NCBI RefSeq assembly: GCF_032854445.1
Contig: NC_088303.1
Coordinates: forward strand, 25,985,501-26,049,500
Reading direction: 5' to 3'
DNA from: Liolophura sinensis
Taxonomy: Eukaryota; Mollusca; Polyplacophora; Chitonida; Chitonidae
DNA length: 64,000 nucleotides
The notes beneath the pieces were generated by a model. That model saw only the letters and a program-made list of their open reading frames with translations. It searched no databases and was not told where the DNA came from. The position numbers and the translations under genes were made by a program. Below, in pieces: positions 5,474 to 56,904 of the stretch; positions within the stretch are counted from its first letter, which is position 1, and each line of letters begins with the position of its first letter.

Positions 5474-8400
5474 ATGATTACGGTAAAATTTGTACCGGAC
5501 GTACCTCTTCTCAGTTTTTGTGCCGTGATTTTTCTGATTGCAAACAGCGTAGTGGCAGAAGACCTCTACGAGGTTCTTGGAGTTTCAAGATCAGCCACAC
5601 AACAGGAGATCAAGAAAGCATACAAAAATTTAGCCAAGGAATGGTGAGCCTATGCTATTAATAATATTATTGCTTGTAACCACCATTTAATCTTGAAACT
5701 GTGAAATGTGTCCACACCCCACACTCCCAGGGGTTTCCTAACCTCCAACCTGGACAATAGTCCTTCCTGGAGATATTTGGCGATTTGATAGACGATGGCC
5801 GGCGTCCAACAGATTTGTCAAATATATACATGCATCTCCACAACAGACAATTTAGGTAATGGACTACTGGTACCGATTCTTACTGTTTTGTCAGCGGTTT
5901 TATGTCATAAGTTTTGTTAAGTACCTGGTGAAGGTCAATGGTTTAGTCTGGGCATTCTGGTTTCTTCCATCCATAAACCTTATCACCATCATGTAAGTGT
6001 AAAATTTTTAAACGCCAATAAATTAATCATTCTACTGTCTTCTTTAGAATGAAGAGGCGGCATATTATCAGTCCCAGAGATGGCTTTAGTATGAAACAGG
6101 ATTGTACTTCAAAATATGCAATGCAGCAGTTTCTGCTGTGATGTTGTTATGTCTATAATGTGACGTCATCATCAGGAGCTGAAAAAGGGATGTTTTACTT
6201 CAAATGAAAGATGACCTTCTGTCAGGCATTTTGCCACGTGCATTTAACAATGTGTCAGTTGTGAACACATTGCAATATCTTTTCTATCCAGTTGCAATTC
6301 TGGATGCCAAGAGGTCAAAAAATATTAATCTTCAACAGACAATTTAATGTGAACAGTTTTGTTACAAACTAGATACTCTGATTTGAGTCATGCAGCCACT
6401 AGAGTTACAATGCAGAAGGAGATGCTTTTGCATTTCACTGGTTGTAGGACATTGTTTTCTGGTACTTACCACTAAAAAAAATCTTAGACAAGCTCACATT
6501 TTTGCTATATCACTTTCTCTCAATACATGTAAGACTTAGTAGATCACAAGCATTGCTTGTACCAGTGGGAGAGTTTGTCAACACTAGTTTTAAAAGAATT
6601 TGAGAACTGATGAAAATCATGGAGGTAAGTAAGATCTGAATAAGAGTACAGAAGCAGTTTTCAGTTGTATTACGAGGGTTACCTGTATGCTAAAAAAAAA
6701 TCTGAAAAGACTGCACACAGCTTTTGTGAACAGTTCCAGTAAGTGCTCTTCTAGTTTAATTACCGTTGTGTATGTAAATATCCAGGAGGGAAAATCATCC
6801 TGGAGAGAAAATTATCCAGGAGGGAAATAGACAAGTGGAGAAAATGTTCGGCGGAGGGAGTGGGGAAATATCATTACTTTTTTTTTCAGCACTATATCTG
6901 ATTGTTAAAGTTTACTTAAATTTTTTATAACTATTTTATTCAAAACCATACTCATCAAGACTACTCTTTATTCTCCAAAATAAACTGACATTGTTTTCAA
7001 AACATTTACGAAAGTAATATCTTGATGACCTGAATTTTATTTTTACTAAAAAATCTTTTCTTGATGTTTACTGTTGTTTAACTGTTGTAATATTCCTAGT
7101 GATAAGAAAGACCATAGAAGTATTGTGAAATTTCATGCATGTGAATGAAGCTGATTTTTTATTTTTATCTAGGCATCCTGACAAAAACAAAGATCCAGAT
7201 GCTACAGCTATATTCACCAAAATTAATGAAGCTTATGAGGTGAGAGTTAAGTGGAGGATTCCTTGGACTGCTGCACCCTTTGTTCATTTAACTCATTTAA
7301 CATGATATACTGCTTTCAAATTAAGACACTTGACCCAAACATGAACCCCAAGTGTATAAATGAGGACGATTTGCCTTGAAGGCAATTCGTAGCACTATTC
7401 ACGTGTGTGCAAGTTTTGAGTGACTTTTTTTCAATGTTAACTAAAATAAGATATTCACAAGTGTGTTACATTTCAAGAATCATTGACAAACGTCAGCTGT
7501 CAATCCAAATAATTTGACCAGTATCAAATAAATTAAAGGAAAAACAAATATTGCTGACGTTGGTCTCTTATCTTTCAAGTTGGTTGGCAAGCTTATAGTT
7601 ACACCTTGTGGTGCTTTTTATTATTTGTCTTAAAATCTGAAACCTTCAAGTTTCAGTTGTCTCCAAGCATTATACAGTTTACAACCCTTATCTTTTTAAC
7701 CACGTAGACTTTGGGTGAGCCTGAGAGGCGGCACCAATATGATCACTATGGCTACACCACGGCGCAGGAGCCCAACCGACAGCACCAACATCACGGGGAC
7801 TTTGGCTTTTTCAATCAAGGGCCATTTGGAGGGTTTAAGTTTCACTTCCGTGGGGCGGAAGCTATTTTTGATAAATACCTTCTGACTTTAAGGTTCGCAC
7901 CATTTTTGTCCTTTTTTCACCATTAATATCTGTTTTTTCCCCTGTCTATGCTTCGCCATAAAGCTTTACGTTGGCAAGGTTATGTGTAGTAATTTTGACT
8001 GTTGTTTACAACATGTATAACAATATCATCCATAAAGCCCACTTTTCACTGAGAAACATTTATCAACATTTATGCCTATGTGGCCCAGTTGGTTAGTGTG
8101 CTAGCACAGCGTAATGACCCAGGAGCCTCTCACCAATGTGGTCGTTGTGAGTTCAAGTCCAGCTCATGCTGGCTTCCTCTCTGGCTGTACATGGGAAGGT
8201 CTTGCAGCAACCTGCGGATGGTTGTGGGTTTCCCCCATGCTCTGCCCCATTTCTTCCCACCACAAATCTGGCCACCGCCGTATAAGTGAAATATTCTTCA
8301 GTATGGCATAAAACACCAATCAAATAAATAAATAAATAAATATGTCAGTAACCCCCCCCCCCCCCCCCCCAAAAAAAGGTATTTTTTAAATACAACTTTA

Positions 8401-11400
8401 AAAGGTCTTTCTGATGATGCTTACAAATATTTTCCCTTCAGTTTTGTATTCTGAAGGGCTTTGTCTCTAACTGCCAAATGAGGCCTTACACTGTATATAC
8501 ATATTGACATTTCTGTATTTTCCAGAGCATACGAAACTAGAGTTTTTCCGGACAGTCACAAGCGGCCTTACATTATCTACGCCTACTCGGATTTTTGTTT
8601 CCAGTGTATGAGGATGGAGCATATCTTGGAGAAATTCTTCAAGGATTTGGATGGCATAGGTACTTTGATTATTTATTTATTTATTTGATTCATGTTTTAT
8701 GTCTTACTCAAGAATATTTACTTTACAAGACAGTGGCCAGTATTATGGTGGGAGGAAATTGGACCTAGCCATAGGGAAAACCCATGACAATCAGCATGTT
8801 GCTATGGCACACCATGCTGGGATTGGCATTTTAGGAGGCTTGTCTTAGTGACTGTAAATGTAAAGATTAATGAAGCCCAGAAAGAGGAACTTGTCTGTTC
8901 AGTGTTCATGGCGATCTTCAAATATTATGTTGGCAGTAATGATGTGTTATTTCACACAGCATTCCCTTTCCTTCAGCATTGTAATAAATATCTTTTCTGA
9001 TAGAAAGCATGACAATGGACAGTGAAGTTTCTCTCTTAAAGTCAGATTTGCGGCATGCTGTAATATCAACTTATTGAATTCAAAGAGCCATTGAAAATAG
9101 GGCATACTCTGTTTAAGTGCATTTCAGGATAAGTTGCAATTTATTATGATTTTGTTGAATTCTGAAAGTAGGCATGACAGTATGAACTGTGTGGATAGGG
9201 TTTATGATTGAAGAAAAAATGACAGGAATAATTTGCATCTTGGTTTTGGTTTTCACTGCTATGTAGGATTTGGTTTGGGAGCAATTCATGCGGGTGTTAA
9301 CCAAGCCTTAACAACTCACCTGCGACTTCATGAGGTTCCAGCCATCATGGGGCTAAGTCAGGGGCGTTTGACTTTCCTCAAGGGTGTGGTCAACTTGCAG
9401 ACCCTGAAGGACTTTGCTAGAGGCCTCTTCCCATCTCAGCTTGTCAATATGGTATGTAAAGACAGTATATCAGTGAAGTAGTACTGTGATGATATATCAT
9501 TGAGGCAGAACTATAAGGATATATGAGTGAGGCAGAACTGTGACAATATATCAGCGAGGCAGAACCATGATGATGTATCAGTGACGCAACATTATGATGA
9601 TATATCAGTGTGGCAGCACTGTGACGATATATCATTGAGACAGCACTATATGTATGTCAACATTAGGGAGAGTCTGCTGCAAGAGACATGGCTGTGATAA
9701 GAACGAAGTATTGTTTGGTAACAGACTAGTAGATAAATCAGGAGGAGAAATCCAGTAGTAGATTCTGAATATGGTTTAGAGAACGAGATTTGGTCATGTT
9801 CTGTGTAGCTGCGTTGTTGAGGGCTAGCTATTGACAAACCTGAGGGAATATCGTCTAAAGTGGTCACATTTCATCTGGTTGATTTTTTTTTTTTTTTTTT
9901 TTGATTGGTGTTTTACGCCGTACTCAAGAATATTTCACTTATACGACGGCGGCCAGCATTATGGTGGGTGGAAACCGGGCAGAGCCCGGGGGAAACCCAC
10001 GACCATCCGCAGGTTGCTGACAGACCTTCTCACGTACGGCCGCCAGCATGAGCTGGACTTGAACTCACAGCGACCGCATTGGTGAGAGACTCCTGGGTCA
10101 TTACGCTGCGCTAGCGCTTTAACCGACTGAGCCACGGATGCCCCCATCTGGTTGACATCTCAGTGTTCAGCTGGCTTGTGCGCTTCTACCAATTTTGTAT
10201 GTACAGATATTGTATTTCTCCTAATGTTTGGTATGTAAAATGCACTTCTAGAGGAGGGCCTTAAAATAGCACTAGTGATACCAAGTGTTAAGTTTTGCTG
10301 ATGAGAAACTAATTAAACTTCACAAAAAAACAAACCCTTGTCTAGGTGAAACAAGTGAATGAATCAGTCAGAATCAAGAAAAATATGTCACTTGAAAAAT
10401 GCTAAAATTAAGCTGACTGGAAATAAAACAAAACCACTTCTTTAAACTCTATAATCTCTGAGAGTAATCTCTTGTTGTTCTCTGTTGAAATATGTCCTAC
10501 CCATCTAGTGTTTCTTATTCCCAGGTGACTGATGAAGGACTGGACTCATTCTTAAGTGGCTGGCAACAGGATAATCAGGTCCGGGGAATCTTTTTTTCTC
10601 GCAAAGACACCCCGCCTGCTCGATTCTTGCTGAGTGCATTTAAAAACAGAGACCGTATTAAATCGGCCTTGGTTCACATTTACTCGCCGGATGCCAAGGA
10701 AATTCTCTTGAAGTACGGAGTTGACCAATCTAAAGAAACATTGCTCATGTTTAAGGAAGATCCAAAAGTAGCAGTAGCAACTGTGTCGGTAAGCATACTT
10801 TGGCTACTTCTGGTATCTACATGTGAACAGAACTTGAAATTCCCAGTGATTCTTTTTTAATTTTAACATTATTAAAACATTCTAACATTAATTAGAAATA
10901 ATTGTTTTAAATCAAAACTGTATACGTATGTATGTGCATTGTATATTAACAGGAATGTTAATATGTTAACCACATGACCCTGTTATCCTGGATAATCCTA
11001 GATAATCCTGCCATCCTCATTACTAAATGACTGGGTGAGAAGAATTGACGTGGGATACTTTATTCAAGGAAACACAGTTTTTTTGCTAATTTTTATCGAT
11101 CAGTCGAGGAGTAGTATTAAGCATTATAGCATGTCTTATACAGTAATGGTTGGTACACTTCAATTTTACTTTTTGACTGTCTGAAATGTATATTGAATGT
11201 CAGGTTGGTGTCATGCAGATTTCTGAATTGAATATGTGGTTCTTAGTGTAGATAACAGGTCCTTGACCAATGGTGTCACAGTTACCTTTCTGTCTGACGC
11301 TGGATTGAGTGAGATTTACTTCAGAAGATTTTCAACTATTGCCTGGTGTCTAGCGAGCTGATTGTCATCTCATTTTAAAGTGAAAATCTTGATTAAAAGC

Positions 11401-14400
11401 CTAATGTCCCAATACAGCAAACTGTATGAATAATATTGTGTTCTGTCAATTCTGTCAAACAGATGCATCAGATCCCCAGATCTACGTTAGATGAAGTCAT
11501 GGAATCCAACAAGTTCCTGACATTACCCAGACTCTCCAGTCAAGGTTATTTTGATGACCTCTGCCCAGAGACCGAGAGTGTCCGCCGGAGAAAGTAAGAT
11601 TTAACAGTAGCTCATGTAATACAGAAAGGTCTGCTACAGGTAGCACTTTCTTGTGCTGTATATGGTATAAGAGAAACACAAAAAAGTAATTATTGGTCGA
11701 TGAGGACTTTGAATCTATCATCGTTTCCTCTCGCTTAGAGTTTTTGTTTCTAGGACATCCTATTTTACCATTCACATTATCGTGAAAAAACTAACAAAAA
11801 TGCATAATCTTACAGTTTTGGCTGTAATATGTTAATATGTGAAATCTTCTGTAATTGGTTTTAACCTTGCATAATTTGGGAAAATGCAATTCATTTCATG
11901 CATGCATAAAATTTATGTCTTCTTCTAGATTGGTCATATTTAAGATCATTTTCTTTTTATTTTATGTTTTTTCAGGTTGTGTGTTGTGTTGGTAACGCAA
12001 AAGTCCACCGACCATGACTATTACCGCTCAACGTTCAGAAAGTTTGCCCGAAAATTCACCACTTTTCGAGACAAAGTGACACTGACGTACGTGTTTGAGG
12101 ACACTCAGAAGTCCTGGATACAGATGTTGTCTGAAGGTCGTGATAGCAAAGTCAACCAATCCGCTCTGAAGGTCAGCTGCTTCCATGAGAGCTTTCATAA
12201 CTTGAATTACAAGTGATAATTTCTGATGTCTTGCAAAATTAAATGTTTTATTTTTGCCAGATTATATTAGTCTTGCATAGATATACTGATTGTTAAAAAG
12301 GCTTAGGTTATTCTTCAGTGCTTTTATTGCAGTCTCACCAGTGATGTTGATGAGATCCTGAGATTACATAGTAGCTTTGCTTATTTTAGTAACCTTTTTT
12401 TTACACATTCTCATGTCATATTTGCCATTAATGACAATATGACAGTGTTGTGGTCTTTGTAGACAGTTGTTCAAAAGAAGGGAAGTCAGGAATCAAACCC
12501 AGGTCGGGTTATACCAAAGACTGTAAAAATGGTACTTACCTCGCTTGGTGTTCAGCCGTGAAAGGTTAAGAGCAAGGAAACAGGACTGGTTGGCCCAGTG
12601 TCAGCATAATATGACTGGGTGGGGTATCATATCTGGTGTCTTCGGCATGATACCTCAGTGGCGGCAGCACTTTGGAGGCATGTACACTCATCAAATTACT
12701 CTTCGTCGTCAGATGACTGAAAAATTGTTAAGTATGACCAAGAACCCCAAGCATTCATTCATTCAAACGCAGAAAAATCATGACCTACATGTAGGTATTG
12801 TGTATCATATATTCGTATGTAAATAACAATGACTGATTAGAGTGTTGTATTGTTTTGACAGGTGGCAATAATCTGGAGACTTGCTAAGAGGAATCTGAAC
12901 TTTGAATGGCTGGAGCCTGGCTGGCCCAAAGAGAAAACCGACCAGGAGAGGAGCATCGCAGTGTTGAACTCCCGACTGGAACATCTTCTCAGTACTCAGT
13001 CCAATCTATTACATCGTGCCTTGCTACCAGAGCTCTACAACGAACATGCCCTGGTAACTTTACTTCTCACTGCTAATTATGTGTGTTGAAGCTGTTCCGG
13101 GATAAACGGTTGAAGTCCTGTCCATGTGTTAGTGTGTTAATAGATTAATTTGAAAATTTGTGAGTGAGAATATTTGTGAATCTTTCATAGAATAAAGAAG
13201 GAACAGAACAAGTGTAAATGCATGTAGCTTTTTAAAATTTGCTAAATGTACACATGGAAAAGAATGTGTCATTCTCGGTGCTTAAAGCCAATGTTTGTTG
13301 AACATGCTGTTCCAATGTTTAAACATTAAAATGTAGAACTTCTCCATTGCAGAGTATATTAACAAGGATATTGTACAGGCTATTGGACTGGTGGGACCGC
13401 ATTGTGTACTTTGTCATGGGGTGAGTGGCATACATGTGATGTTTGTACAAAGTCTGGTTGGACTGCATTGTGTACTTTGTCATGGGGTGAGTGGCATACA
13501 TGTGATGTTTGTACAAAGTCTGATGGGACCGCATTGTGTCCTTTGTCATGGGGTGAGTGGCATACATGTGATGTTTGTACAAAGTCTGATGGGACCGCAT
13601 TGTTTACTTTGTCATGAGGTGAGTGGCATACAATGTGATGTTTGTACAAAGTCTGGTTGGACCACATTGTGTATTTTGTCATGGGGCGAATGGCATACAT
13701 GTGATGTTTGTACAAAGTCTGGTGGGACCGCATTGTGTACTTAGTCATGGGTTGAGTGGCATACATGTGATGTTTGTACAAAGTCTGATGGGACCGCATT
13801 GTTTACTTTGTCATGAGGTGAGTGGCATACATGTGATGTTTGTACAAAGTCTGGTTGGACTGCATTGTGTACTTTGTCATGAGGTGAGTGGCATGTGATG
13901 TTTGTACAAAGTCTGATGGGACCGCATTGTGTCCTTTGTCATGGGGTGAGTGGCATACATGTGATGTTTGTACAAAGTCTGGTTGGACAGCATTGTGTAC
14001 TTTGTCATGGGGTGAGTGGCATACATGTGATGTTTGTACAAAGTCTGGTTGGACAGCATTGTGTATTTTGTCATGGGGTGAGTGGCATACATGTGATGTT
14101 TGTACAAAGTCTGGTGGGACTGCATTGTGTATTTTGTCATGGGTTGAGTGGCATACATGTGATGTTTGTACAAAGTCTGGTGGGACCGCATTGTGTATTT
14201 TGTCATGGGTTGAGTGGCATACATGTGATGTTTGTACAAAGTCTGATGGGACCGCATTGTGTACTTAGTCATGGGGTGAGTGGCATACATGTGATGTTTG
14301 CACAAAGTCTGGTTGGACCGCATTGTGTACTTTGTCATGAGGTGAGTGGCATACATGTGATGTTTGTACAAAGTCTGGTTGGACAGCATTGTGTATTTTG

Positions 14401-17400
14401 TCATGGGGTGAGTGGCATACATGTGATGTTTGTACAAAGTCTGGTGGGACTGCATTGTGTATTTTGTCATGGGTTGAGTGGCATACATGTGATGTTTGTA
14501 CAAAGTCTGGAGGGACCTGAAGGTAGGTCCTCAGATATGAAGCTTTAAGAATGAAACTGTACGTTACTGGCATTATGTTACTTAGCTGTTTTCAAAATTC
14601 CCAACCTAGCCTTGATTGCACAGTTGGTAGAGCATCCACTTGGGGAGCGCTAGATCCAGGATCAGTCCTGGGTCGAGTCACACCTAAGACCTTAAAAGAG
14701 GAAGTTGTAACTTCCTCGCTTAACATTCAGCCTGATGGGGATGGTGCAACGACTGGTTGACCCTTGTCAGTATAATGGCTTCGGCGGGGCGCCTTACTTG
14801 CCTTCGGTAAGCCGTCTCAGTGAAGCAGCACTAAAAAAAAGAGCGGTGGAAAGCCGTCCTGCGACAAGGAGGCACATTCCATGCACACTAAGGATTCCCT
14901 CGTCGTCATATGACTAAAAAATTGTTAAGTACGACGTTAAACCCCAAGCACTCACTCACTAATTAAGAATTCTTGCCTATGTGCAGCATGCTGGCTTGCT
15001 GACTTGCTCTCTAGTCATACGTGGGAAGGCCTACCAGCAACCTGCAGGGAATCTTGAGTTTTCCTTGGGCTCTGCCTGGTTTTCTCCCACCATTATGGTG
15101 ACCACCACAAGTCCGGCATAAAGCACCACCAATCAAAAAAATAAATAAATAAACATTTGTAGCATACTCTAAAAAACACTCCTTTTACACAGCAGGATGA
15201 TATTAAGGGAGGTAATTCAGATTGGCTTTAAGCTCTACGCTTCTAATTATGTTAAAGAGTGCATTGTAGTGAAGTGACATTTTGGTTAAATGTTTTCACA
15301 AGCCTGATAAAAAGTTTTAGATGTGCCTAAAGTACAGTTTTGCCTCACTTCTGAAAATCTACTGCTCATTTTATGAATTAATGTCACAACTTCCATTGTG
15401 CGTTTTTTGTTTTCTTTACCCGTAGTTACGACTCTGCCACCTGGAGTTTGTTGACATTCTCAGCAGCCATTGTGTTTCTGCTTGGGTATGTCATGCAGAA
15501 AATGATGATGGTAGAGGAGGCCAATGTTGAGCGCATGCGCCCGAAACGAGCCAAACCACGCCCACCTAACAGGTCAGTGTATTAGCATATAATGCACTAG
15601 GCAGCTGATAAATAATGAATAATGTGTCTTACCACTAAACCCTTGACTAACCTGAACTATTTGCTGCTGACAGTCTTGTGGATGTAACAGGTCCTATCAG
15701 TAACCCCTGACTAGTCTCAACCAGTTGCTGCTGACAGTCTTGTGGGTATAACAGGTCCTACCACTAACTCTTGACAAATCTCAACCAGATGCTGCTGACA
15801 GTCTTGTTGGTTTAAGAGGTCCTACCACTAACTCTTGACTAATCTCAACCAGTTGCTGCTGACAGTCTTGTTGGTATAACAGGTCCTACCACTGACTCTT
15901 GACAAATCTCAACCAGATGCTGCTGACAGTCTTGTTGGTTTAAGAGGTCCTACCACTAACTCTTGACTAATCTCAACCAGTTGCTGCTGACAGTCTTGTT
16001 GGTATAACAGGTCCTACCACTAACTCTTGACTAATCTCAACCGGTTGCTGCTGACAGTCTTGTTGGTATAACAGGTCCTACCACTAACTCTTGACTAATC
16101 TCAACCAGTTACTGGTGACAACCTTATGGATATAACAGGTCCTACCACTAACTCTTGACTTTAATACTAAACCAGCAGTGGCATACGGTCTTGTGGATGT
16201 GTCACAACTGTTTAATAGTGATTGCAAATGTTTAAAGTGTCAAAAAAGTAATAAAGCAGAAGCAACAACAGAATCACACTGTTTTATCTATCCCACATGA
16301 TACTGATTTGTCCTGTGTTGATTGGTGATTACAGGACTGAAGACAACACGGTGTACGTTCATCCTCTGCGGGCCGAATCCTATGACATGCTGGTGCGTCA
16401 GTCAGACACTGGGCTCACTGTCACCATTCTGGTGGACTTGCCTTCCAGAGAAAAACTGCTGCAGAGATTTGTGGAGATTATGTTCCCACATTCAAGGTAT
16501 AAAATCTCTATTGTTATAATTAAGGTACATTTTATAAGAAATTTCAGATAGTGTATATGTACATGTTTGTTTGTGCTTAAGGCCTTCTGTAGCGTAATAA
16601 TACAGTAATAGTGATAATTTAATAATTACATGAAAACTAGATGTGTGCAGTTGTTAGTAACTTGTAATAAAGTACGCTCCTGTGAACAACTTGTTCACAA
16701 AGGATACATGGATGTGTGTAAAATGCATCATAAAAGGCAGAGGTGTAGGTCTATTTTGTTTGCCATGTGCTCATTTCCCGATCAGCTCATGTGTATTTTA
16801 TTGTTGTGGTCTTCCATGTACATTTCTACATGTGATTACCCAGCATTCCACAGTAACTTATCGTAGTTCATAACGAGACTGGTCTGTGATGCTGCTGATT
16901 TCTGCTGGTCTTCTATGCCATGTAGAGCTGCTAACATAACTTTGGTGTGTAAGATAAACTTTTCTAGGTAATGCACTGATACACATTCCACATTTGCCCT
17001 CTCCTTTAAAACTGTGGCGAACATGCCGCAATTATTTCATATGACACGTCACCATTAGCAATGTTCATACTGTATGTCGGCATTAGCAACAAGACTTTAC
17101 CATGACTCCATCCAGTGACACTGCATCTTTTCTCTCTGTACATATTCTTGCGTATTAGTATGAGTGTTGATTTCCTAAATTTTTGTGACAGATTTCATTT
17201 TCAGCAACTAAATTTTTGCTCCTTAGTTGAATTGATTGAAGTTTGGTGTTTAATAAATAGATTGAATGAATACAGCTGATGTGGTGGAAGCACCCAAAAC
17301 TACAACAACCTACAATTATTACAATCATGTATTAACTGCGAAAAACATTACCTGAGATAAATAGTTTCTCACTTATGAGTTTTGTCATTCTGTCAGTGAC

Positions 17401-32200: not shown

Positions 32201-35200
32201 ACCATGTAGGCCCCCACTTTGCCTTTTACATGCGCCCACTCACCAGTACACAGTAAGTTTTCACAAAGGGATCTTCAGTGATGGCTGTGACATCGACCAC
32301 ATTAGCGCTGCCTAAAGTGCGGAAAAAGCTTGTCTGTACATCTTCATGACACATCAGGATCTTCTGGGGGGTCAATATCAAGCAGCAAGCCAGGCAATTC
32401 AAGCTGCGGCCTTCTCCCATAATGCACTGTTATAACGGTAAGATTCATAATGTAAGAAAAAAATCCATATTCATTAAGGCTCACATATACTATGTATTCT
32501 TGTGGCAGGGGCGAGTCCATGCTGCGAAAGATGAAGAATCATGCCGAAGATATCAGACATGACACATCACTGAGTCACATTATACTGACACCGAGCCCAC
32601 CAGTCCTGTTTCCTCACTCTAACCTTTCCGCGCTGAGCTTCATGCCAGGCAGCAACAAGTACCATTTTTGAAGTCTTTGGTATGACCCGACCTGGGTTTT
32701 GATCACGAGCACATGATTCTGAAGTAGTAACATTCTGACAGCACAAAAATTTGCAGCACAGCTCTGTTTCTTTGTGGAGCATTTGAAAATAGCTTACCAC
32801 CAGAGGTTCTTTTCGTACTTTCTATTTGGAATATCAAGCTCTATTCAGAACGTCTAGGCCATAATCCTTAGATACTTTCCATCACAGCAATAAGTGTAGT
32901 GCATTAAATATTATGACTACACTAATTCTTCAATCTTTTCAAACATGAAAGAGCAACTTTCATTGCAATTTATGCATTTACGTAATTTTGTTTTGGAGAC
33001 AAAACTACACTAGTCGGATCTACATTGTAAATCTGCCAGCAACTTACAGATCGTTGTGCTTTTCCTCTGAGCTCTGCCCTGTTTCCTACCTCCATAATAC
33101 TGGAAACTATTGTATAAGTGAAATATTCTTAAGTACCTCATAAGACACGAATCAATTAAATAAATAAACAAGCTTCAGGAACACAAGGCCTCTGACACAG
33201 CACCTGTAGCCAGTTCCTAGCTTCTTCACTTTCACACCTGGTATGTGTAGTTTCACCTGCTGTCCCTCTGACACAGCACCTGTAGCCAGCTCTTCCTCAC
33301 TCTCACACCGGGTATGTGTAGACTCACCTGATGTTCCTCTGACACACCACCTGTAGCCACCTGCTAGCTTCCTCACACCTGCTATGTGCAGACTCTCCTG
33401 TTGACCATCTGACACGGCACCAATAGCCAGCTGCTGGTTTCCTTACCCTCACACCTGGTATGTGTAGACTCACCTGTTGGCCCTCTGACACAGCCTGACA
33501 CAGCACTTGCTAGTATCCTCACTCTCATGCCTGGTATGTGTAGACTCACCTGTTGATCCTCTGACACCACCTGACATAGCTCCTGCAGCCACTTGCTAGC
33601 TTCCTCACCTTCACGTCTGGTATGTGTAGGCTCACCTGTTGGCCCTCTGACACAGCCTGACACAGCTCCTATAGCCTACTGCTAGTTTCCTCACCCTCAC
33701 ACCTGGTATGTGTAGACTCACCTGTTGATCCTCTGACACCACTTGACACAGCACCTGCAGCCACCTGCTAGCTTCCTCGCCTTCATGCCTGGTGTGTGTA
33801 GGCTCACCTGTTGGCCCTCTGAAACATCCTGACATAGCACCTGCAGCCACCTGCTAGCTTCCTCACCTTCACGTCTGTTATGTGTAGGCTCACCTGTTGG
33901 CCCTCTGACACCACCTGACACAGCACCTGTAGCCACTTGCTAGCTTCCTCACCTTTACGCCTGGTATGTGTGGACTCATTTATTGACCCTCTGACACAGC
34001 CTGACACAGCACCTGTAGCCATCTACAAGCTTCCTCACCCTCACACCTGCTATGTGTAGACTCACCTGTTGACCTTCTGACACAGCACCTGTAGCCACCT
34101 GCTAGCTTCCTCACCTTTATGCCTGGTATGTGTGGACTCACCTGTTGACCTTCTGACACAGCACCTGTAGCCAGCTGCTAACTTCCTCATCCTCACACCT
34201 GGTATATGTAGACTCACCTGTTGACCCTCTGACACAGCCTGACACAGCACCTGTAGCCAGCTGCTAGCTTCCTGATCATTCGCTGCGGCCAGCTGTATAC
34301 CATTCCCCTTGGTGCCCATGATCTCCAAACAGTGGCTCCTGTCTGTAGACGTCAGTCTCCTGCACCCGCTACAGTTCTCGCTGTTCAGTTTGATGAACTG
34401 CTGGGGCTTGCTGTCAGACTTTGAGTTGAATAGACAGAAAACTCCATCTCTGCCCGCAGAAAAACAATGTCACAAAATATTAACAACTTAACAGATTTCA
34501 TGTCTATCCAATATATTCCTGCGCTGCATCACAACAGAAAGCACGTTCTGATTGCAACATCAAACTTTTCCATTATCGGAGGCACAGAACCAATTGCATG
34601 CACTACCCACACCACAGAATCAAGCTTGTTTTTTTTTAAAAAAAAAATCAATAGATGAAGAAAATAAACAAAATATCTTGTTCTATTCAGTTGACAGGAC
34701 GTACCTGAGAGCCACGTAAGCTGTTTTCCAGGTAAAGTTGAGGCCCTTTGATTTGTAGAGTAAATGCCCCTCTTTGTGCGCACTCTGCTGTTTGCGACTA
34801 GAGCTGGGATCTTCCCAGTGTACCAGAACATACGACAGAATCTTCACATTCTCTCGCTGGTAACAAAAACACAAGTTACATGTCTTCAGAATCAAAGGAA
34901 TAGTTCAGCAACATGTTTCAAAAGATAGGATAATAGCAATTTAGGTTTGTAGACGCATTTTAACGTGAGTCTGTTTCCATCTTTATGTTGATGTAAGATT
35001 TTTTGTATGTGGTAACAACTCAGTTCCACAGAAATATAATAAGAAGATCTAGACTGTCAGAAATTTGTAAGTTGAGCCTATGTTTTTTTCATGAGTTTGA
35101 CTTTCACTTTGCCACATGTTGCTCCTATAGGGTCTCTCCACTTGTGCAAGTGCAGTAATGCTGTTTATGTTAAAACATATATTGAATCAATCTGTTCTAG

Positions 35201-46618: not shown

Positions 46619-49600
46619 GATGGACTATAAATTTCTGCAATGTTTGGGAGATGCTGTGAAGGCCATTTCGCTCTGTCATGCCGGACAGAATGTTTGGGAG
46701 ATGCTGTGAAGACCATTTCTGTCACACTGGGGTGACTGGGAGATGCTGTGAAGACCATTTCTGTCACACTGGGGTGACTGGGAGATGCTGTGAAGACCAT
46801 TTCTGTCATGGTGGGGAGAATGTTTGGGTGATGCTGTGAACACAATTTCTGTCACACTGGAGTGACTGTTAGGGAGATGCTGTGAAGACCATTTCTGTTA
46901 AATTGGGCAGATTGTTTGGGAGATGCTGTGAAGACCATTTCTGTCATGCTGGAGTGACTGTTTGGGAGATGCTGTGAAGACCATTTCTCTCATACTGGAG
47001 TGACTGTTTGGGAGATGCTGTGAAGACCATTTCTCTCATACTGGGGAGGATGTTTGGGAGATGCTGTGAAGACCAATTCTGTCATGCTGGAGTGACTGTT
47101 AGGGAGATGCTGTGAACACAATTTCTGTCACACTGGAGTGACTGTTAGGGAGATGCTGTGAAGACCATTTCTTTTAAATTGGGCAGATTGTTTGGGAGAT
47201 GCTGTGAAGACCATTTCTGTCATGCTGGAGTGACTGTTTGGGAGATGCTGTGTAGACCATTTCTCTCATACTGGAGTGACTGTTTGGGAGATGCTGTGAA
47301 GACCATTTCTCTCATACTGGGGAGGATGTTTGGGAGATGCTGTGAAGACCAATTCTGTCATGCTGGAGTGACTGTTAGGGAGATGCTGTGAAGACCATTT
47401 CTCTCATACTGGGGTGACTGGGAGATGCTGTGAAGACCATTTCTGTCATGCTGGGGTGACTGGGAGATGCTGTGAAGACCATTTCTGTCATGCTGGGGAG
47501 AATGTTTGGGTGATGCTGTGAACACAATTTCTGTCACACTGGAGTGACTGTTAGGGAGATGCTGTAAAGACCATTTCTGTTAAATTGGGCAGATTGTTTG
47601 GGAGATGCTGTGAAGACCATTTCTGTCATGCTGGAGTGACTGTTTGGGAGATGCTGTGAAGACCATTTCTCTCATACTGGGGAGGATGTTTGGGAGATGC
47701 TGTGAAGACCAATTCTGTCATGCTGGATTGACTGTTTGGGAGATGCTGTGAAGACCATTTCTGTTAAATTGGGCAGATCGTTTGGGAGATGCTGTGAAGA
47801 CCATTTCTGTCATACTGGAGTGACTGTTTGGGAGATGCTGTGAAGACCATTGCTGTCATGCTGGATTGACTGTTTGGGAGATGCTGTGAAGACCATTTCT
47901 CTCATAGTGGAGTGACTGTTAGGGAGATGCTGTGAAGACCATTTCTGTCATGCTGGAGTGACTGTTTGGGAGATGCTGTGAAGACCATTTCTCTCATACT
48001 GGGCAGGATGTTTGGGAGATGCTGTGAAGACCATTTCTCTCATACTGGGATGGATGTTTGGGTGATGCTGTGAACACAATTTCTGTCATACTAGACTGAC
48101 AGTTAGGGAGATGCTGTCATTGTCATACAATTCTGTCATACTGGGATGGATGTTTGGGTGATGCTGTGAACACAATTTCTGTCACACTGGACTGACTGTT
48201 GGGGAGATGCCGTGAAGAACATTTCTGTTAAATTGGGCAGATTGTTTGGGAGATGCTGTGAAGACCATTTCTGTCATACTGGAGTGACTGTTTGGGAGAT
48301 GCTGTGAAGACCATTTCTGTCATGCTGGAGTGACTGTTTGGGAGATGCTGTGAAGACCATTTCTATCATGCTGGAGTGACTGTTTGGGAGATGCTGTGAA
48401 GACCATTTCTCTCATACTGGGATGGATGTTTGGGAGATGCTGTGAAGACCAATTCTGTCATGCTGGGGAGAATGTTTGGGTGATGCTGTGAACACAATTT
48501 CTGTCACACTGGAGTGACTGTTTGGGAGATGCTGTGAAGACCATTTCTGTGAAATTGGGCAGAATGTTTGGAGATGCTGTGAAGACCATTTCTATCATGC
48601 TGGAGTGACTGTTTGGGAGATGCTGTGAAGACCATTTCTCTCATAGTGGAGTGACTGTTTGGAAGATGCTGTGAAGACCATTTCTGTCATGCTGGATTGA
48701 CTGTTTGGGAGATGCTGTGAAGACCATTTCTCAAATACTGGGGAGAATGTTTGGATGATGCTGTGAAGATCATTTCTGTCATGCTGGAGTGACTGTTTGG
48801 GAGATGCTGTGAAGACCATTTCTCTCATACTGGGGAGGATGTTTGGGAGATGCTGTGAAGACCATTTCTCTCATACTGGGATGGATGTTTGGGTGATGCT
48901 GTGAAAACAATTTCTGTCACACTAGACTGACAGTTAGGGAGATGCTGTCATTGTCATACAATTCTGTCATACTGGGATGGATGTTTGGGTGATGCTGTGA
49001 ACACAATTTCTGTCACACTGGACTGACAGTTAGGGAGATGCTGTGAAGACCATTTCTGTTAAATTGGGCAGAATGTTTGGAGATGCTGTGAAGACAATTT
49101 TTCTCATACTGGGGTGGATGTTTGGGAGATGCTGTGAAGACCATTTCTCTCATAGTGGAGTGACTGTTTGGGAGATGCTGTGAAGACCATTTCTCTCATA
49201 CTGGGGTGGATGTTTGGGAGATGCTGTGAAGACCAATTCTGTCATACTGGGGTGGATGTTTGGGAGATGCTGTGAAGACCATTTCTGTCATGCTGGAGTG
49301 ACTGTTTGGGAGATGCTGTGAAGACCATTTCTCTCATACTGGGGTGGATGTTTGGGAGATGCTGTGAAGACCAATTCTGTCATACTGGGGTGGATGTTTG
49401 GGAGATGCTGTGAAGACCATTTCTGTCATGCTGGAGTGACTGTTTGGGAGAGGCTGTGAAGACCATTTCTGTCATACTGGAGTGACTGTTTGGGAGATAC
49501 TGTGAAGACCATTTCTGTCATGCTGGAGTGACTGGGAGATGCTGTGAAGACCAATTCTGTCATACTGGAGTGACTGTTTGGGAGATACTGTGAAGACCAT

Positions 49601-52600
49601 TTCTGTCATGCTGGAGTGACTCTTTGGGAGATGCTGTGAAGACATACTGGGGTGGATGTTTGGGTAATGCTGTGAAGACCATTTCTGTCATGCTGGATTG
49701 ACTGTTTGGGTGATGCTGTGAAGACCATTTCTGTCATGCTGGAGTGACTGGGAGATGCTGTGAAGACCAATTCTGTCATACTGGAGTGGACTGTTTGGGA
49801 GATACTGGAAGGACCATTTCTGTCATGCTGGAGTGACTGTTTGGGAGATGCTGTGAAGACCATTTCTCTCATACTGGGGTGGATGTTTGGGTAATGCTGT
49901 GAAGACCATTTCTGTCATGCTGGATTGACTGTTTGGGAGATGCTGTGAAGACCATTTCTATCATGCTGGATTGACTGTTTGGGAGATGCTGTGAAGACCA
50001 TTTCTGTCATGCTGGAGTGAATGTTTGGGAGATGCTGTGAAGACCATTTCTCTCATACTGGGGTGGATGTTTGGGTAATGCTGTGAAGACCATTTCTGTC
50101 ATGCTGGATTGACTGTTTGGGAGATGCTGTGAAGACCATTTCTATCGTGCTGGATTGACTGTTTGGGAGATGCTGTGAAGACCATTTCTGTCATGCTGGA
50201 GTGACTGTTTGGGAGATGCTGTGAAGACCATTTCTGTCATGCTGGATTGACTGTTTGGGAGATACTGTGAAGACCATTTCTGTCATGCTGGATTGACAGT
50301 TTGGGAGATGCTGTGAAGACCATTTCTCTCATACTGGGGTGGATGCTTGGGAGATGCTGAGAAGACCGTTTCTGTCATGCTGGAGTGACTGTTAGGGAGA
50401 TGCTGTGAAGACCATTTCTCTCATAGTGGAGTGACTGTTTGGAAGATGCTGTGAAGACCATTTCTCTCATGCTGGATTGACTGTTTGGGAGATGCTGTGA
50501 AGACCATTTCTCAAATACTGGGAGAATGTTTGGATGATGCTGTGAAGATCATTTCTGTCATGCTGGAGTGACTGTTTGGGAGATGCTGTGAAGACCATTT
50601 CTCTCATACTGGGGAGGATGTTTGGGAGATGCTGTGAAGACCATTTCTCTCATACTGGGATGGATGTTTGGGTGATGCTGTGAAGACAATTTCTGTCACA
50701 CTAGACTGACAGTTAGGGAGATGCTGTCATTGTCATACAATTCTGTCATACTGGGATGGATGTTTGGGTGATGCTGTGAACACAATTTCTGTCACACTGG
50801 ACTGACAGTTAGGGAGATGCTGTGGAGACCAGTTCTGTTAAATTGGGCAGAATGTTTGGGAGATGCTGTGAAGACAATTTCTCTCATACTGGGGTGGATG
50901 TTTGGGAGATGCTGTGAAGACCATTTCTGTCATGCTGGAGTGACTGTTTGGGAGATGCTGTGAAGACCATTTCTCTCATACTGGGGTGGATGTTTGGGAG
51001 ATGCTGTGAAGACCAATTCTGTCATACTGGGGTGGATGTTTGGGAGATACTGTGAAGACCATTTCTGTCATACTGGAGTGACTGTTTGGGAGATGCTGTG
51101 AAGACCATTTCTGTCATACTGGATTGACTGTTTGGGAGATGCTGTGAAGACCATTTCTGTCATAGTGGAGTGACTGTTTGGGAGAGGCTGTGAAGACCAT
51201 TTCTCTCATAGTGGAGTGACTGTTTGGGAGAGGCTGTGAAGACCATTTCTCTTATAGTGGAGTGACTGGGAGAGGCTGTGAAGACCATTTCTGTCATACT
51301 GGAGTGACTGTTTGGGAGATACTGTGAAGACCATTTCTGTCATGCTGGATTGACAGTTTGGGAGATGCTGTGAAGACCATTTCTCTCATACTGGGGTGGA
51401 TGCTTGGGAGATGCTGAGAAGACCGTTTCTGTCATGCTGGAGTGACTGTTAGGGAGATGCTGTGAAGACCATTTCTCTCATACTGGGGTGGATGTTTGGG
51501 AGATACTGTGAAGACCAATTCTGTCATACTGGGGTGGATGTTTGGGTGATGCTGTGAACACAATTTCTGTCACACTGGAGTGACTGTTAGGGAGATGCTG
51601 TGAAGACCGTTTCTGTTAAATTGGGCAGATTGTTTGGGAGATGCTGTGAAGAGCATTTCTCTCATACTGGAGTGACTGTTTGGAAGATGCTGTGAAGACC
51701 ATTTCTGTCATGCTGGATTGACTGTTTGGGAGATGCTGTGAAGACCATTTCTCAAATACTGGGGAGAATGTTTGGATGATGCTGTGAAGATCATTTCTGT
51801 CATGCTGGAGTGACTGTTTGGGAGATGCTGTGAAGACCATTTCTCTCATACTGGGGAGGATGTTTGGGAGATGCTGTGAAGACCATTTCTCTCATACTGG
51901 GATGGATGTTTGGGTGATGCTGTGAAGACAATTTCTGTCACACTAGACTGACAGTTAGGGAGATGCTGTCATTGTCATACAATTCTGTCATACTGGGATG
52001 GATGTTTGGGTGATGCTGTGAACACAATTTCTGTCACACTGGACTGACAGTTAGGGAGATGCTGTGAAGACCATTTCTGTTAAATTGGGCAGAATGTTTG
52101 GGAGATGCTGTGAAGACAATTTCTCTCATACTGGAGTGAATGTTTGGGAGATGCTGTGAAGACCATTTCTGTCATGCTCGAGTGACTGTTTGGGAGATGC
52201 TGTGAAGACCATTTCTCTCATACTGGGGTGGATGTTTGGGAGATGCTGTGAAGACCAATTCTGTCATACTGGGGTGGATGTTTGGGAGATGCTGTGAAGA
52301 CCATTTCTGTCATGCTGGAGTGACTGTTTGGGAGATGCTGTGAAGACCATTTCTGTCATACTGGAGTGACTGTTTGGGAGATACTGTGAAGACCATTTCT
52401 GTCATACTGGAGTGACTGGGAGATGCTGTGAAGACCAATTCTGTCATACTGGAGTGACTGTTTGGGAGATACTGTGAAGACCATTTCTGTCATGCTGGAT
52501 TGACTGTTTGGGAGATGCTGTGAAGACATACTGGGGTGGATGTTTGGGTAATGCTGTGAAGACCATTTCTGTCATGCTGGATTGACTGTTTGGGTGATGC

Positions 52601-53640
52601 TGTGAAGACCATTTATGTCATGCTGGAGTGACTGGGAGATGCTGTGAAGACCAATTCTGTCATACTGGAGTGACTGTTTGGGAGATACTGTGAAGACCAT
52701 TTCTGTCATGCTGGAGTGACTGTTTGGGAGATGCTGTGAAGACCATTTCTCTCATACTGGGGTGGATGTTTGGGTAATGCTGTGAAGACCATTTCTGTCA
52801 TGCTGGATTGACTGTTTGGGAGATGCTGTGAAGACCATTTCTATCATGCTGGATTGACTGTTTGGGAGATGCTGTGAAGACCATTTCTGTCATGCTGGAG
52901 TGACTGTTTGGGAGATGCTGTGAAGACCATTTCTGTCATGCTGGATTGACTGTTTGGGAGATACTGTGAAGACCATTTCTGTCATGCTGGATTGACAGTT
53001 TGGGAGATGCTGTGAAGACCATTTCTCTCATACTGGGGTGGATGCTTGGGAGATGCTGAGAAGACCGTTTCTGTCATGCTGGAGTGACTGTTAGGGAGAT
53101 GCTGTGAAGACCATTTCTCTCATACTGGGGTGGATGTTTGGGAGATACTGTGAAGACCATTTCTCTCATACTGGAGTGACTGGGAGATACTGTGAGGACC
53201 ATTTCTGTCATACTGGAGTGACTGGGAGAAGCTGTGAAGACCATTTCTCTCATACTGGAGTGACTGTTTGGGAGATGCTGTGAAGACCATTTCTGTCATA
53301 CTGGAGTGACTGGGAGATGCTGTGAAGAACATCTCTCTCATACTGAGGTGGATGTTTGGAAGATACTGTGAAGACCATGTCTCTCATACTGGAGTGCTGG
53401 GAGATACTGTGAAGATCATTTCTGACATGCTGGAGTGACTTTGGGAGATACTGTGAAGACCATTTCTCTCATACTGGGGTGGATGTTTGGGAGATACTGT
53501 GAAGACCATTTCTCTTATACTGGGGTGGATGTTTTGGAGATGCTGTACATGTCATTTCTGTCATGTTGGGCAGAGTGTTTGGGAGATGCTGTAGAGGTCA
53601 TTTCTGTCATACTGGGCTCAATGTTTGGGGAATGCTATAC
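46619..53640 (+). repeat. 46-bp satellite, about 7 kb, roughly 150 units with higher-order structure
   Basis: The unit is like 'gtttgggagatgctgtgaag' 'accatttctgtcatgctgga' 'gtgact'. Variants include a short unit lacking 'gtttggg', units with 'ttaaattgggcag', and a rare form 'gctgtcattgtcatacaatt'. The rare form recurs near 48110, 48935, 50715 and 51960, and the form 'gcttgggagatgctgagaag' near 50345, 51405 and 53045, showing block duplications of about 0.8-1.6 kb. It lies between PLEKHM2 and B3GALT6. No splice donor, ORF or promoter motif is repeated in an obvious way. Confidence 0.95.
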
Positions 53641-54862
53641 AGATAATTTCTATACAACTGGAAAGAATGGGGGAATTGCTGTACATATCATTTCTGTTAG
53701 GCTGGGCAGAATGGGGGAATTGCTGTACATATCATTTCTGTTAGGCTGGGCAGAATGGGGGAATTGCTGTACATATCATTTCTGTTAGGCTAGGCAGAAT
53801 GGGGGAATTGCTGTACATATCATTTCTGTTAGGCTGGGCAGAATGGGGGAATTGCTGTACATATCATTTCTGTTAGGCTGGGCAGAATGGGGGAATTGCT
53901 GTACATATCATTTCTGTTAGGCTGGGCAGAATGGGGGAATTGCTGTACGTATCATTTCTGTTAGGCTGGGCAGAATGGGGGAATTGCTGTACGTATCATT
54001 TCTGTTAGGCTAGGCAGAATGGGGGAATTGCTGTACATATCATTTCTGTTAGGCTGGGCAGAATGGAGGAATTGCTGTACATATCATTTCTGTTAGGCTG
54101 GGCAGAATGGGGGAATTGCTGTACATATCATTTCTGTTAGGCTGGGCAGAATGGGGGAATTGCTGTACATATCATTTCTGTTAGGCTGGGCAGAATGGGG
54201 GAATTGCTGTACATATCATTTCTGTTAGGCTGGGCAGAATGGGGGAATTGCTGTACATATCATTTCTGTTAGGCTGGGCAGAATGGGGGAATTGCTGTAC
54301 ATATCATTTCTGTTAGGCTGGGAAGAATGGGGGAATTGCTGTACATATCATTTCTGTTAGGCTAGGCAGAATGGGGGAATTGCTGTACATATCATTTCTG
54401 TTAGGCTAGGCAGAATGGGGGAATTGCTGTACATATCATTTCTGTTAGGCTGGGCAGAATGGAGGAATTGCTGTACATATCATTTCTGTTAGGCTGGGCA
54501 GAATGGGGGAATTGCTGTACATATCATTTCTGTTAGGCTGGGCAGAATGGGGGAATTGCTGTACATATCATTTCTGTTAGGCTGGGCAGAATGGGGGAAT
54601 TGCTGTACATATCATTTCTGTTAGGCTGGGCAGAATGGGGGAATTGCTGTACATATCATTTCTGTTAGGCTAGGCAGAATGGGGGAATTGCTGTACATAT
54701 CATTTCTGTTAGGCTGGGCAGAATGGGGGAATTGCTGTACATATCATTTCTGTTAGGCTGGGAAGAATGGGGGAATTGCTGTACATATCATTTCTGTTAG
54801 GCTAGGCAGAATGGGGGAATTGCTGTACATATCATTTCTGTTAGGCTAGGCAGAATGTTTAG
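53641..54862 (+). repeat. 44-bp satellite, about 27 nearly identical units
   Basis: The unit is like 'gaatgggggaattgctgtac' 'atatcatttctgttaggctg' 'ggca'. Units differ by only a few positions (ctagg for ctggg, gaatggagg, gggaag, acgtatc). The core 'gctgt......catttctgt' is shared with the 46-bp unit, and intermediate forms at 53520-53660 link them. The order of variants suggests duplication of blocks of about nine or ten units. Confidence 0.95.
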
Positions 54863-55451
54863 GAGAATGCTGTGCATATCTGTCATACTGAACAGAATGT
54901 TTGGGAGGTGCTATACAGGTCATTTCTGACACGAGGGTAGGATGTTTGGAAAATGTTGCAAACATTGTGATTTGTTGGTAGAGATTACCCATAATTGGAA
55001 ATGGGGATTGAGGGTAAGGGAAATGGGTTGTTATGTGTATGCCAGAAATGTATATATTTTTAGAAACTTACCATCACATGCCATGGGTCAACTACATCTA
55101 AATTTGTGAGACTGATTATGGCTTACCACAGAAAATATTCATACACGCCCCAGATGTTGTCAAGGTCATGTCTGCCCTGATGGGCAGAATGTATATGGAT
55201 ATGTTGTACTGATCACTTCTGTCATCCTGGGTATAGAACTGCTATGTTATATACAGCTTGTTTCTGTCATGCTCGACAAACTGTTACGCTTTTACTGTAC
55301 AGAACATTTCCATGATTCTATGTGGAAAATTTTAGTGCAGATCACTGATCTTGAAACATATCTTTAAAACTCACAACCATCTTTAGTAAGGTACAAAAAT
55401 ATTTTATTTCATGTAAAGGTAGAGTGTACATATACATTCCACTTATTTTGT
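54863..55451 (-). other. B3GALT6 3' flank
   Basis: A few decayed satellite copies run to about 54960, then unique AT-rich sequence up to the B3GALT6 stop codon. It probably contains the B3GALT6 3' UTR; 'tattttatttcatg' near 55398 is a possible minus-strand polyadenylation context, not a firm call. Confidence 0.4.
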
Positions 55452-56492
55452 TTAGGGAATTGTCGAGTCATTTCTGATACAACACAAGCTTGGTGGAGCA
55501 TTCCAGTTATACTGATAAGATAAATGTTTTCTCTCCTCTTTTCGACACAAAACCCCAATGTCTTTCAAGGTGTTAAATTTTTCTCTCATGTTAGCAGGTG
55601 ATTGTTTATGCAAAACAATGTACTTATTATTACATCCTCTGGATTCAAATTCGGTGTCAAACCTTGGGTCATGAACTCTTAGAATATCCAGTGGGCCCAA
55701 CCATGCCCCCACAGAAACATCCTCACTGTTAAACTGTTGTAAGAATTTTGAGTTTATGGTTATGTAATGGACCAAGTCTGCTGATAAGACGTACCCACCT
55801 CCACGAGCATATGGTAGATATCTATCACACAACACCCAGTCTTTTTCTTTCCATTTTCCGGAGTGTTTTACCCGAGCAGCACCATTAAAAAAGCCCCAAT
55901 AAAGTCTTTCTTTAGGCTGAAAGCGGAGCTCCTCCAGGAATGTATCCAAACGAACAAAGCTATCATCATCGACTTTTAACAAAAACTGAAAATCAACATT
56001 TTTATCTACCCACTGGAAGCTCTCTACAACTTTTGCTGTAAGCCCACCATAAGACTCTTCTACATTTTTCAAGAGCAGCAAATCATTATGTACAGAGTTC
56101 TCTCTTTCAACACCACGCAGATCATTTTTGTTTAATTTTTTAATTCCGATCAGAAATTTGACCATCACATCTTCGGGCATGTTGCTCAGCCAAGTCTCTC
56201 TGATAACGTCTCTTCTTTCCAAATTCTGTGGCCCTGACAGAACCATGATGATGACGGATGCTGCCTGAGACTTTTTGGCAGCAAAAATATGCTTTTTCCA
56301 GTAGGAATGACTTTTGACGAGTTCCAGATCCTCCTGGAAAATTCCATACGTCTTGTCCTCACAAGGCATGTTACAAAATGTCAAATACATCATAACACTG
56401 AAGCACAGAAAAATCCCACCAATCAAAATTGTTCCCGCATACTTGTTGAGACGGCGGTCAACTCCTGGGGGGAATCTCCCAGAATGCACCAT
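55452..56492 (-). CDS. B3GALT6: beta-1,3-galactosyltransferase 6 (galactosyltransferase II)
   Basis: B3GALT6 adds the second galactose of the GAG-protein linker tetrasaccharide in the Golgi, needed for heparan and chondroitin sulfate. It is a single 346-residue reading frame (human 329), intronless as in vertebrates. A short cytosolic N-terminus and a signal-anchor at about 19-40 (AGTILIGGIFLCFSVMMYLT) make it a type II membrane protein. GT31 motifs are RRDVIRETW (93-101), the DxD metal/UDP site KVDDDSF (173-179), YWGFFNGAARVK, ARGGGYVLSADLVHY (229-243), EDVSVGAWLGPLD (257-269) and HDPRFDTEFESRGCNNKY. The HDPRFDTE...SRGC segment and the APPSLCC tail are typical of B3GALT6 rather than other GT31 members. 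It lies head-to-head with UBE2J2. Confidence 0.96.
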   Translation of the reverse strand: MVHSGRFPPGVDRRLNKYAGTILIGGIFLCFSVMMYLTFCNMPCEDKTYGIFQEDLELVKSHSYWKKHIFAAKKSQAASVIIMVLSGPQNLERRDVIRETWLSNMPEDVMVKFLIGIKKLNKNDLRGVERENSVHNDLLLLKNVEESYGGLTAKVVESFQWVDKNVDFQFLLKVDDDSFVRLDTFLEELRFQPKERLYWGFFNGAARVKHSGKWKEKDWVLCDRYLPYARGGGYVLSADLVHYITINSKFLQQFNSEDVSVGAWLGPLDILRVHDPRFDTEFESRGCNNKYIVLHKQSPANMREKFNTLKDIGVLCRKEERKHLSYQYNWNAPPSLCCIRNDSTIP

Positions 56493-56904
56493 TTCTATTA
56501 TGTCCTAAGAGTCTCCTCGCCATCAAAGCATGTTCGTGCACTTGGTTTCACAGTTCTTTGCATAGTAGGCCTAATAAATGCAGTTCTGAAACACAAATGG
56601 TGGAATATACTTACAGGTATTATTAACACATTTTGGTAAGGTTTTTCTGTTAAGAATGACAAATGACACATCATACTGGCCATAACTTGTACTTTACTTT
56701 GCAAGTCATTTGACATTCAGGGCAAAAACAAAAACCCACTAACGAGCAGTAGGCTATATGCGAGATCAAAGATCAGTAAAAACTGTTCACAAGTATAGTG
56801 GGATTGTTTGTTTGTTTTTTTTTGTTTGTTTTTTTTAGAATTTTCTCAACCCAGTAAAACGCATTTGAAACTCTGGATTCTATGGTGGCCATACTGAGAC
56901 CAGT

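Follow-up and report, generated by a model that had tools for sequence, protein, structure and literature searches.

The end of an exon with the adjoining 5' splice site as the unit of a minisatellite in a PLEKHM2-like gene of the chiton Liolophura sinensis, with related arrays at other exon edges

An intron of a PLEKHM2-like gene of the chiton Liolophura sinensis contains a tandem array with a period of 86 base pairs (bp), in which every complete unit joins the end of the preceding exon to the beginning of the intron. It lies in the 64,000-nucleotide (nt) stretch analysed here (the window; positions 25,985,501 to 26,049,500 of NC_088303.1, assembly GCF_032854445.1). A preliminary description of the window had seen in this array the amplified end and 5' splice site of an exon for a PH domain, and alignment of the units bears this out. 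The array is in all likelihood a minisatellite of the kind known from amphioxus as “mirage”, that is, a segment holding the end of an exon together with the 5' splice site, duplicated and expanded into the intron. It is not an isolated accident, and a small survey points to such repeats at a few percent of the exon edges in the genome.

The founder exon codes for the second part of the PH domain (Pfam PH match, 1.9e-06), and its frame has no stop between 34448 and the donor. On the minus strand its 3' end reads ...GGTCAACAG/GTGAGTC (here and below the stroke before GT marks the boundary), which is a CAG/GTGAGT donor. Joined to the preceding exon, its best match among solved structures is the PH domain of human PLEKHM2 (3hw2_B, 5.6e-17). 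As this alignment, which stops at LCQAVSEG, reaches to two residues before the founder donor, the exon end is old, and the founder can indeed be told from its copies by homology to human PLEKHM2, as the preliminary description had claimed. The acceptor proposed there at 32427 likewise coincides with the end of the next acceptor AG. A Pfam search with the exon that follows it gave no match, while another part of the same gene at 38461-38736 matches Pfam PH_PLEKHM2 (9.6e-10).

Tandem Repeats Finder places the array at 33189-34238 with 13.2 copies and a score of 842, and rows with other periods extend it to 34273. The aligned unit consists of about 60 nt of exon and about 27 nt of intron; the two-part composition first proposed stands, with lengths that differ slightly from the 56 and 30 nt given with it. 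Successive boundaries are 86 or 76 nt apart because one half of an internal 10-nt repeat is missing in five copies and a different 10-nt gap is present in one, and at the far end of the array the spacing falls to 70 and 71 nt. Most variants of unit size thus reflect whether the internal repeat is single or double. The sequence AG/GTGAG(T/C) is intact at 10 of the 13 boundaries, as initially counted, the exceptions being two at which GT is lost (33980 and 33398) and one reading GTGAAA (33257). At the first junction the match, judged by eye, is 3 nt (GAT) at most. No new intron or extra exon sequence is visible between the duplicates, all of which sit inside the existing intron (Table 1).

Table 1. 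Coordinates of the two exon-end arrays of the window and of the exons around them
Feature	Position	Strand	Basis
Preceding exon, first part of PH domain	34705..34856	-	Sequence; contributes to PLEKHM2 match
Founder exon, second half of PH domain; its final ~60 nt supply the exon part of the unit	34218..34449	-	Sequence, Pfam, PLEKHM2 alignment
Founder donor GT (CAG/GTGAGT), presumed to be the one used	34216..34217	-	Sequence
Array: founder unit, 12 more boundary-bearing units and partial 14th	33189..34277	-	Tandem Repeats Finder, unit alignment
Twelve copied boundaries	33256..34142	-	Unit alignment
Last exon-like bases, boundaries 1-7	34218 (founder), 34142, 34066, 33980 (GT lost), 33894, 33808, 33722	-	
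Last exon-like bases, boundaries 8-13	33636, 33550, 33474, 33398 (GT lost), 33328, 33257 (GTGAAA)	-	
Partial 14th unit, exon-derived part only, stopping short of the boundary	33189..33229	-	Unit alignment
Next exon, in phase with founder exon	32244..32426	-	Acceptor AG 32428-32427, donor after 32244, by eye
Founder exon of second array	13353..13420	+	Sequence
Second array at an exon end: 17 units of 66 bp (33 nt exon + 33 nt intron)	13388..14517	+	Tandem Repeats Finder, alignment

The second, independent array that had been reported within the same 64 kb is also real (Table 1), and is found in a gene which we take to be DNAJC16-like. The frequency of such arrays was estimated in the assembly (609,464,459 bases in 632 contigs, among them C1 with 96,433,062 and the window's own contig C9 with 37,343,639) from 80 exon regions with 500 bp on each side, picked by place and open-frame length with their sequence unseen at the time of choice. 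Sixty of these came from matches to the RRM domain: the best 25 of 146 matches, many of which resemble one multi-copy family with long frames, were scanned for repeats as loci and left uncounted, and the remainder supplied the regions, one of which holds two matches. The other 20 came from 27 PH matches, after six with open frames of more than 500 amino acids and one apparent paralogue had been dropped. The main count comprises arrays of at least three copies with a period of at least 20, which excludes four rows with fewer than three copies (L068, L070, L077 and L086), a T-rich 17-bp row with 3.0 copies (L116) and a T-rich row with 1.9 copies (L106).

Arrays cross the exon end in 4/80 regions (L075, L095, L098 and L121) and the exon start in 2/80 (L098 and L090), which places 6 of 160 exon edges inside an array (95% interval 1.4-8.0%). 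Six further arrays of at least three copies lie in the flanks off the edge (L088, L092, L105, L106, L120 and L122). Edge-straddling arrays therefore make up 6 of 12, against 1.13 expected if founder units were placed at random (P(>=6)=3e-4), and the excess persists if L098 is counted only once (P(>=5)=0.0019) or if the six excluded rows are added (P(>=6)=0.0017). None of the donors of the four exon-end arrays is CAGGTGAGT, the word by which arrays were selected on contig C1 (see below), so that the survey is independent of it. The proposal in the preliminary description that two such arrays in one window point to a mechanism instead of a single accident thus gains support, both from the excess over random placement and from recurrence in unrelated genes.

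Two of the off-edge arrays, L120 and L122, had been candidates for exon-edge arrays and were rejected when their sequence was read. At L098, and probably also at L008, both edges of one exon carry arrays, the start being amplified upstream and the end downstream. The RRM copies with long frames at L030, L031, L034, L035, L038, L042 and L045, which are on different contigs, have in common a tandem duplication of about 241 bp downstream.

On contig C1, 21 arrays were examined which had been chosen for at least two copies of the donor word CAGGTGAGT; being selected by this word, they provide no estimate of frequency. An exon end was accepted as convincing if its frame is open, an acceptor lies upstream and the edge of the array has a donor; 12/21 arrays begin at such an end (L005, L007, L009, L010, L012, L015, L016, L017, L018, L020, L021 and L129), and 2/21 probably do (L008 and L022). 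An outside protein match was obtained for 7 of the 12 convincing exons: SUFU (7.4e-10), Fe-hydrogenase C (3.1e-13), DNA ligase C (2.3e-8), the choline transporter CHT1 (6.8e-14), the chloride exchanger CLCN7 (1.2e-5), TELO2 (0.0027) and alpha-L-fucosidase (2.7e-4, under the Pfam gathering score). Presumably, the Fe-hydrogenase C exon belongs to CIAO3, and we assume the exons of L021 and L129, for which no match was obtained, to be those of ALG1 and TADA1. Pfam gave nothing at a credible level for L005, L009, L016, L017 and L010; for L017 and L010 the PDB set did provide a match. Nothing useful came from the PDB set for L021 or from Pfam for L129, and L009 retrieved from the PDB set only pentatricopeptide proteins (E 0.002 or weaker), which were taken as chance matches. 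In L011, the same donor-bearing unit occurs in adjacent arrays of opposite orientation. A link between unit length and reading frame is unsupported, as 7 of 17 listed periods (L005 and L129 are left out of this list) are divisible by 3.

Words were also counted over the assembly. CAGGTGAGT occurs in 936 triples compared with 55 for the reversed word, a 17-fold difference, with singles at 10,097 and 2,731, and the acceptor word TTTTNCAGG gives 369 triples versus 106 reversed (singles 41,825 versus 25,555). Among the first 100 places listed for each word, with copies spaced up to 300 bp apart, independent loci with at least three copies number 8/59 for CAGGTGAGT and 2/91 for its reverse (p=0.014).

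A number of results weigh against reading the PLEKHM2-like array as one case of a recurrent, harmless amplification of exon edges. Normal use of the exon-proximal founder donor is presumed from the sequence. The survey is small, several of its exons come from one gene or from related genes, its copy threshold was chosen post hoc, and every region was assumed to have both edges. On C1, no exon is found at the edge in 7/21 arrays (L003, L004, L006, L011, L013, L014 and L019); the exon donor is 47 nt upstream of the array in L014, and the upstream edge of L004, within L128, is without an exon. In L012, L016 and L018 the array begins at the donor, and the unit, by eye, is nearly devoid of exon sequence. 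The difference between words is also weaker at loci with at least two copies, again among the first 100 listed places (10/59 for CAGGTGAGT versus 6/91 reversed, p=0.059). An arbitrary word, CTGGATGAG, has 286 triples compared with 25 for its reverse (11-fold; singles uncounted), and another donor word, AAGGTAAGT, has only 103 versus 67, with singles at 7,537 and 10,164. As AAGGTAAGT barely exceeds its reverse while the arbitrary word does so strongly, donor-word counting was demoted from its place as main proof. The word counts being this noisy, the claim of recurrence rests on the exon-first survey.

The many intact donors might suggest that the array is functional, with a series of near-perfect U1 sites regulating splicing, intron retention or premature polyadenylation under selection. 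This was assessed as mismatch to the majority base, comparing the nine donor columns with the rest of the unit, in the PLEKHM2-like array and then in six exon-end arrays pooled (the two in the window and L075, L095, L098 and L121). In the PLEKHM2-like array the donor columns differ in 9/108 cells (0.083) and the others in 87/865 (0.101), and the exon-derived and intron-derived parts are alike (0.091 and 0.114). In the pooled set, 31/494 donor cells differ versus 173/3028 elsewhere (p=0.60), with GT retained in 42/55 copies. Selection on the copied donors is therefore unsupported in these six arrays. As the donor columns drift at the rate of the whole unit, no selection is needed to account for the intact sequence at 10 of 13 boundaries, and a functional array is accordingly rather improbable. 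A reversed order of events, in which an existing array later supplied the sequence of the exon end, by conversion or by recruitment, has a still smaller chance of being right. Conversion could also produce the roughly 60 nt of exon sequence common to founder and copies. However, the alignment to human PLEKHM2 makes the exon sequence the older of the two, and the founder departs from 10/11, 11/11 and 12/12 copies at three columns. Such founder-private differences imply that the copies exchange with one another and not with the exon.

That donor-containing arrays recur across the genome could also be explained by a mobile element or introner-like sequence which inserts at AG/GT and carries the repeats with it. 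Such an element would be expected to leave the same sequence at many loci, whereas every array is made of the exon and intron sequence of its own host, and the DNA of the PLEKHM2-like array matched only itself in the assembly, in a search that skips very common words; this origin is hardly credible. An assembly artefact is just as improbable, even though tandem repeats are prone to misassembly and this assembly does contain a mitochondrial concatemer, for the copies differ from one another at about a tenth of positions and unrelated genes share the anatomy with different sequences. The concatemer is contig C99, which carries seven copies of COX1 at intervals of about 15.5 kb, with TGA inside as in the invertebrate mitochondrial code; COX1 is found once on C632.

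Under the minisatellite explanation, a segment of about 86 bp across the exon end and 5' splice site most likely underwent an ordinary tandem duplication, after which the extra copies would multiply into the intron by slippage or unequal exchange. With the boundary nearest the exon left intact, the mRNA would be unaffected; if splicing normally uses the donor next to the exon, the copies would therefore remain intronic and harmless. These steps go beyond the anatomy of the array and are put forward as probable ones. The weakest part concerns the excess at exon edges, which may arise because duplications there are tolerated as long as the founder boundary remains intact, combined with some local propensity for duplication that would depend on composition or be linked to transcription or splicing. 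Tolerance plus composition could suffice. The bolder view, that tandem duplication in chitons has hot spots at exon edges and that several percent of splice sites, that is thousands, have spawned minisatellites, is possible yet doubtful. If it were true, the likeness to amphioxus would suggest that a duplication process connected with transcription or splicing has gone unrecognised, and many natural experiments would be available in which one intron holds multiple copies of one splice site.

Arrays of this kind are already known. Mirage minisatellites have been described in amphioxus for the globins BflGb6 and BflGb9, Adh3, troponin C and PGBD5 (PMC3087553, PMC3902484). Splicing was reported to be normal despite the arrays, from Adh3 data and from reverse transcription PCR (RT-PCR) on the globins (PMC3087553). 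As in the chiton, the units of mirages measure tens to about 160 bp and extend across an exon-intron boundary, which may be at the start or at the end of the exon; many keep AG/GT, and founder or edge units stand outside homogenisation. The PLEKHM2-like array has boundary-spanning units, AG/GT in many of them and an edge unit that is not homogenised. It is itself an exon-end case, and both ends and starts are represented at the level of the genome by the surveyed arrays. The amphioxus work differs in that it consists of gene-by-gene reports on a cephalochordate with RT-PCR and length variation, whereas the present analysis concerns a mollusc, includes an exon-edge survey and draws on the sequence of one assembly.

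In humans, the 31-bp variable number tandem repeat (VNTR) of CBS, c.1444_1467+7(16_21), has a unit that takes 24 nt from the exon end and 7 nt from the intron (PMC2630376). It resembles the chiton array in having a 5' splice site in each repeat and differs in being one polymorphic locus. Effects of this VNTR on splicing and enzyme activity were reportedly described by Lievers in 2001. A further CBS variant, c.844_845ins68, is a tolerated tandem duplication of an intron-exon junction of which one copy is preferred in splicing (PMC2630376), though it has two copies only and is located at an exon start. Internal tandem repeats at exon-intron boundaries have also been described in human segmental duplications, where they can alter splicing or form introns (PMC2812944); these are likewise exon-intron minisatellites, found by comparing recent primate paralogues and not by a general survey of exon edges. 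The Rogers model derives new introns from AGGT proto-splice sites that are duplicated in tandem (as described in PMC3087553). The starting duplication in that model also holds splice signals, whereas the chiton copies lie in an existing intron, the array has stops in all three frames on read-through, and the flanking exons join in phase when it is left out.

Hence the kind is known from amphioxus mirages and the human CBS VNTR, and what is new is its occurrence in a mollusc and an apparent genome-wide excess. The open-licence literature searched describes such arrays gene by gene, mostly from lancelets and from individual loci in humans, and yielded no report of an exon-boundary minisatellite in a mollusc and no genome-wide count in an animal. 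The main text of a comparative paper on chitons (PMC12005716) does not contain the terms “tandem repeat” or “minisatellite”. If several percent of mollusc exon edges do carry arrays, they would be a neglected way for introns to grow and possibly for new introns to arise. As each array places many near-identical 5' splice sites side by side, RNA reads could test the rule that the exon-proximal site wins.

Exons of the DNAJC16-like gene gave no match when tried against Pfam. An array at 15626-16160 was considered as a third exon-end array and rejected, since it begins about 53 nt past the donor and the similarity is only short; like the array at 9461-9649 in the same gene, which starts 9 nt beyond an exon donor, it excludes the donor itself. 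DNAJC16 and PLEKHM2 are presumably neighbours in human 1p36 as well, and the adjacency of the DNAJC16-like and PLEKHM2-like genes in the window is possibly an old linkage. Two dispersed repeats at about 12500-12720 (plus strand) and 32560-32700 (minus strand), which we take to be of the short interspersed nuclear element (SINE) type, have “caggtcgggt.ataccaaagac” in common. At 46641-54927 lies an array of 8.3 kb with units of 46 bp (about 153 copies) and 44 bp (about 54 copies) and a strong skew of G over C (about +0.35) on the plus strand, and a single frame of 350 amino acids at 55455-56504 on the minus strand matches Pfam Galactosyl_T (1.4e-31).
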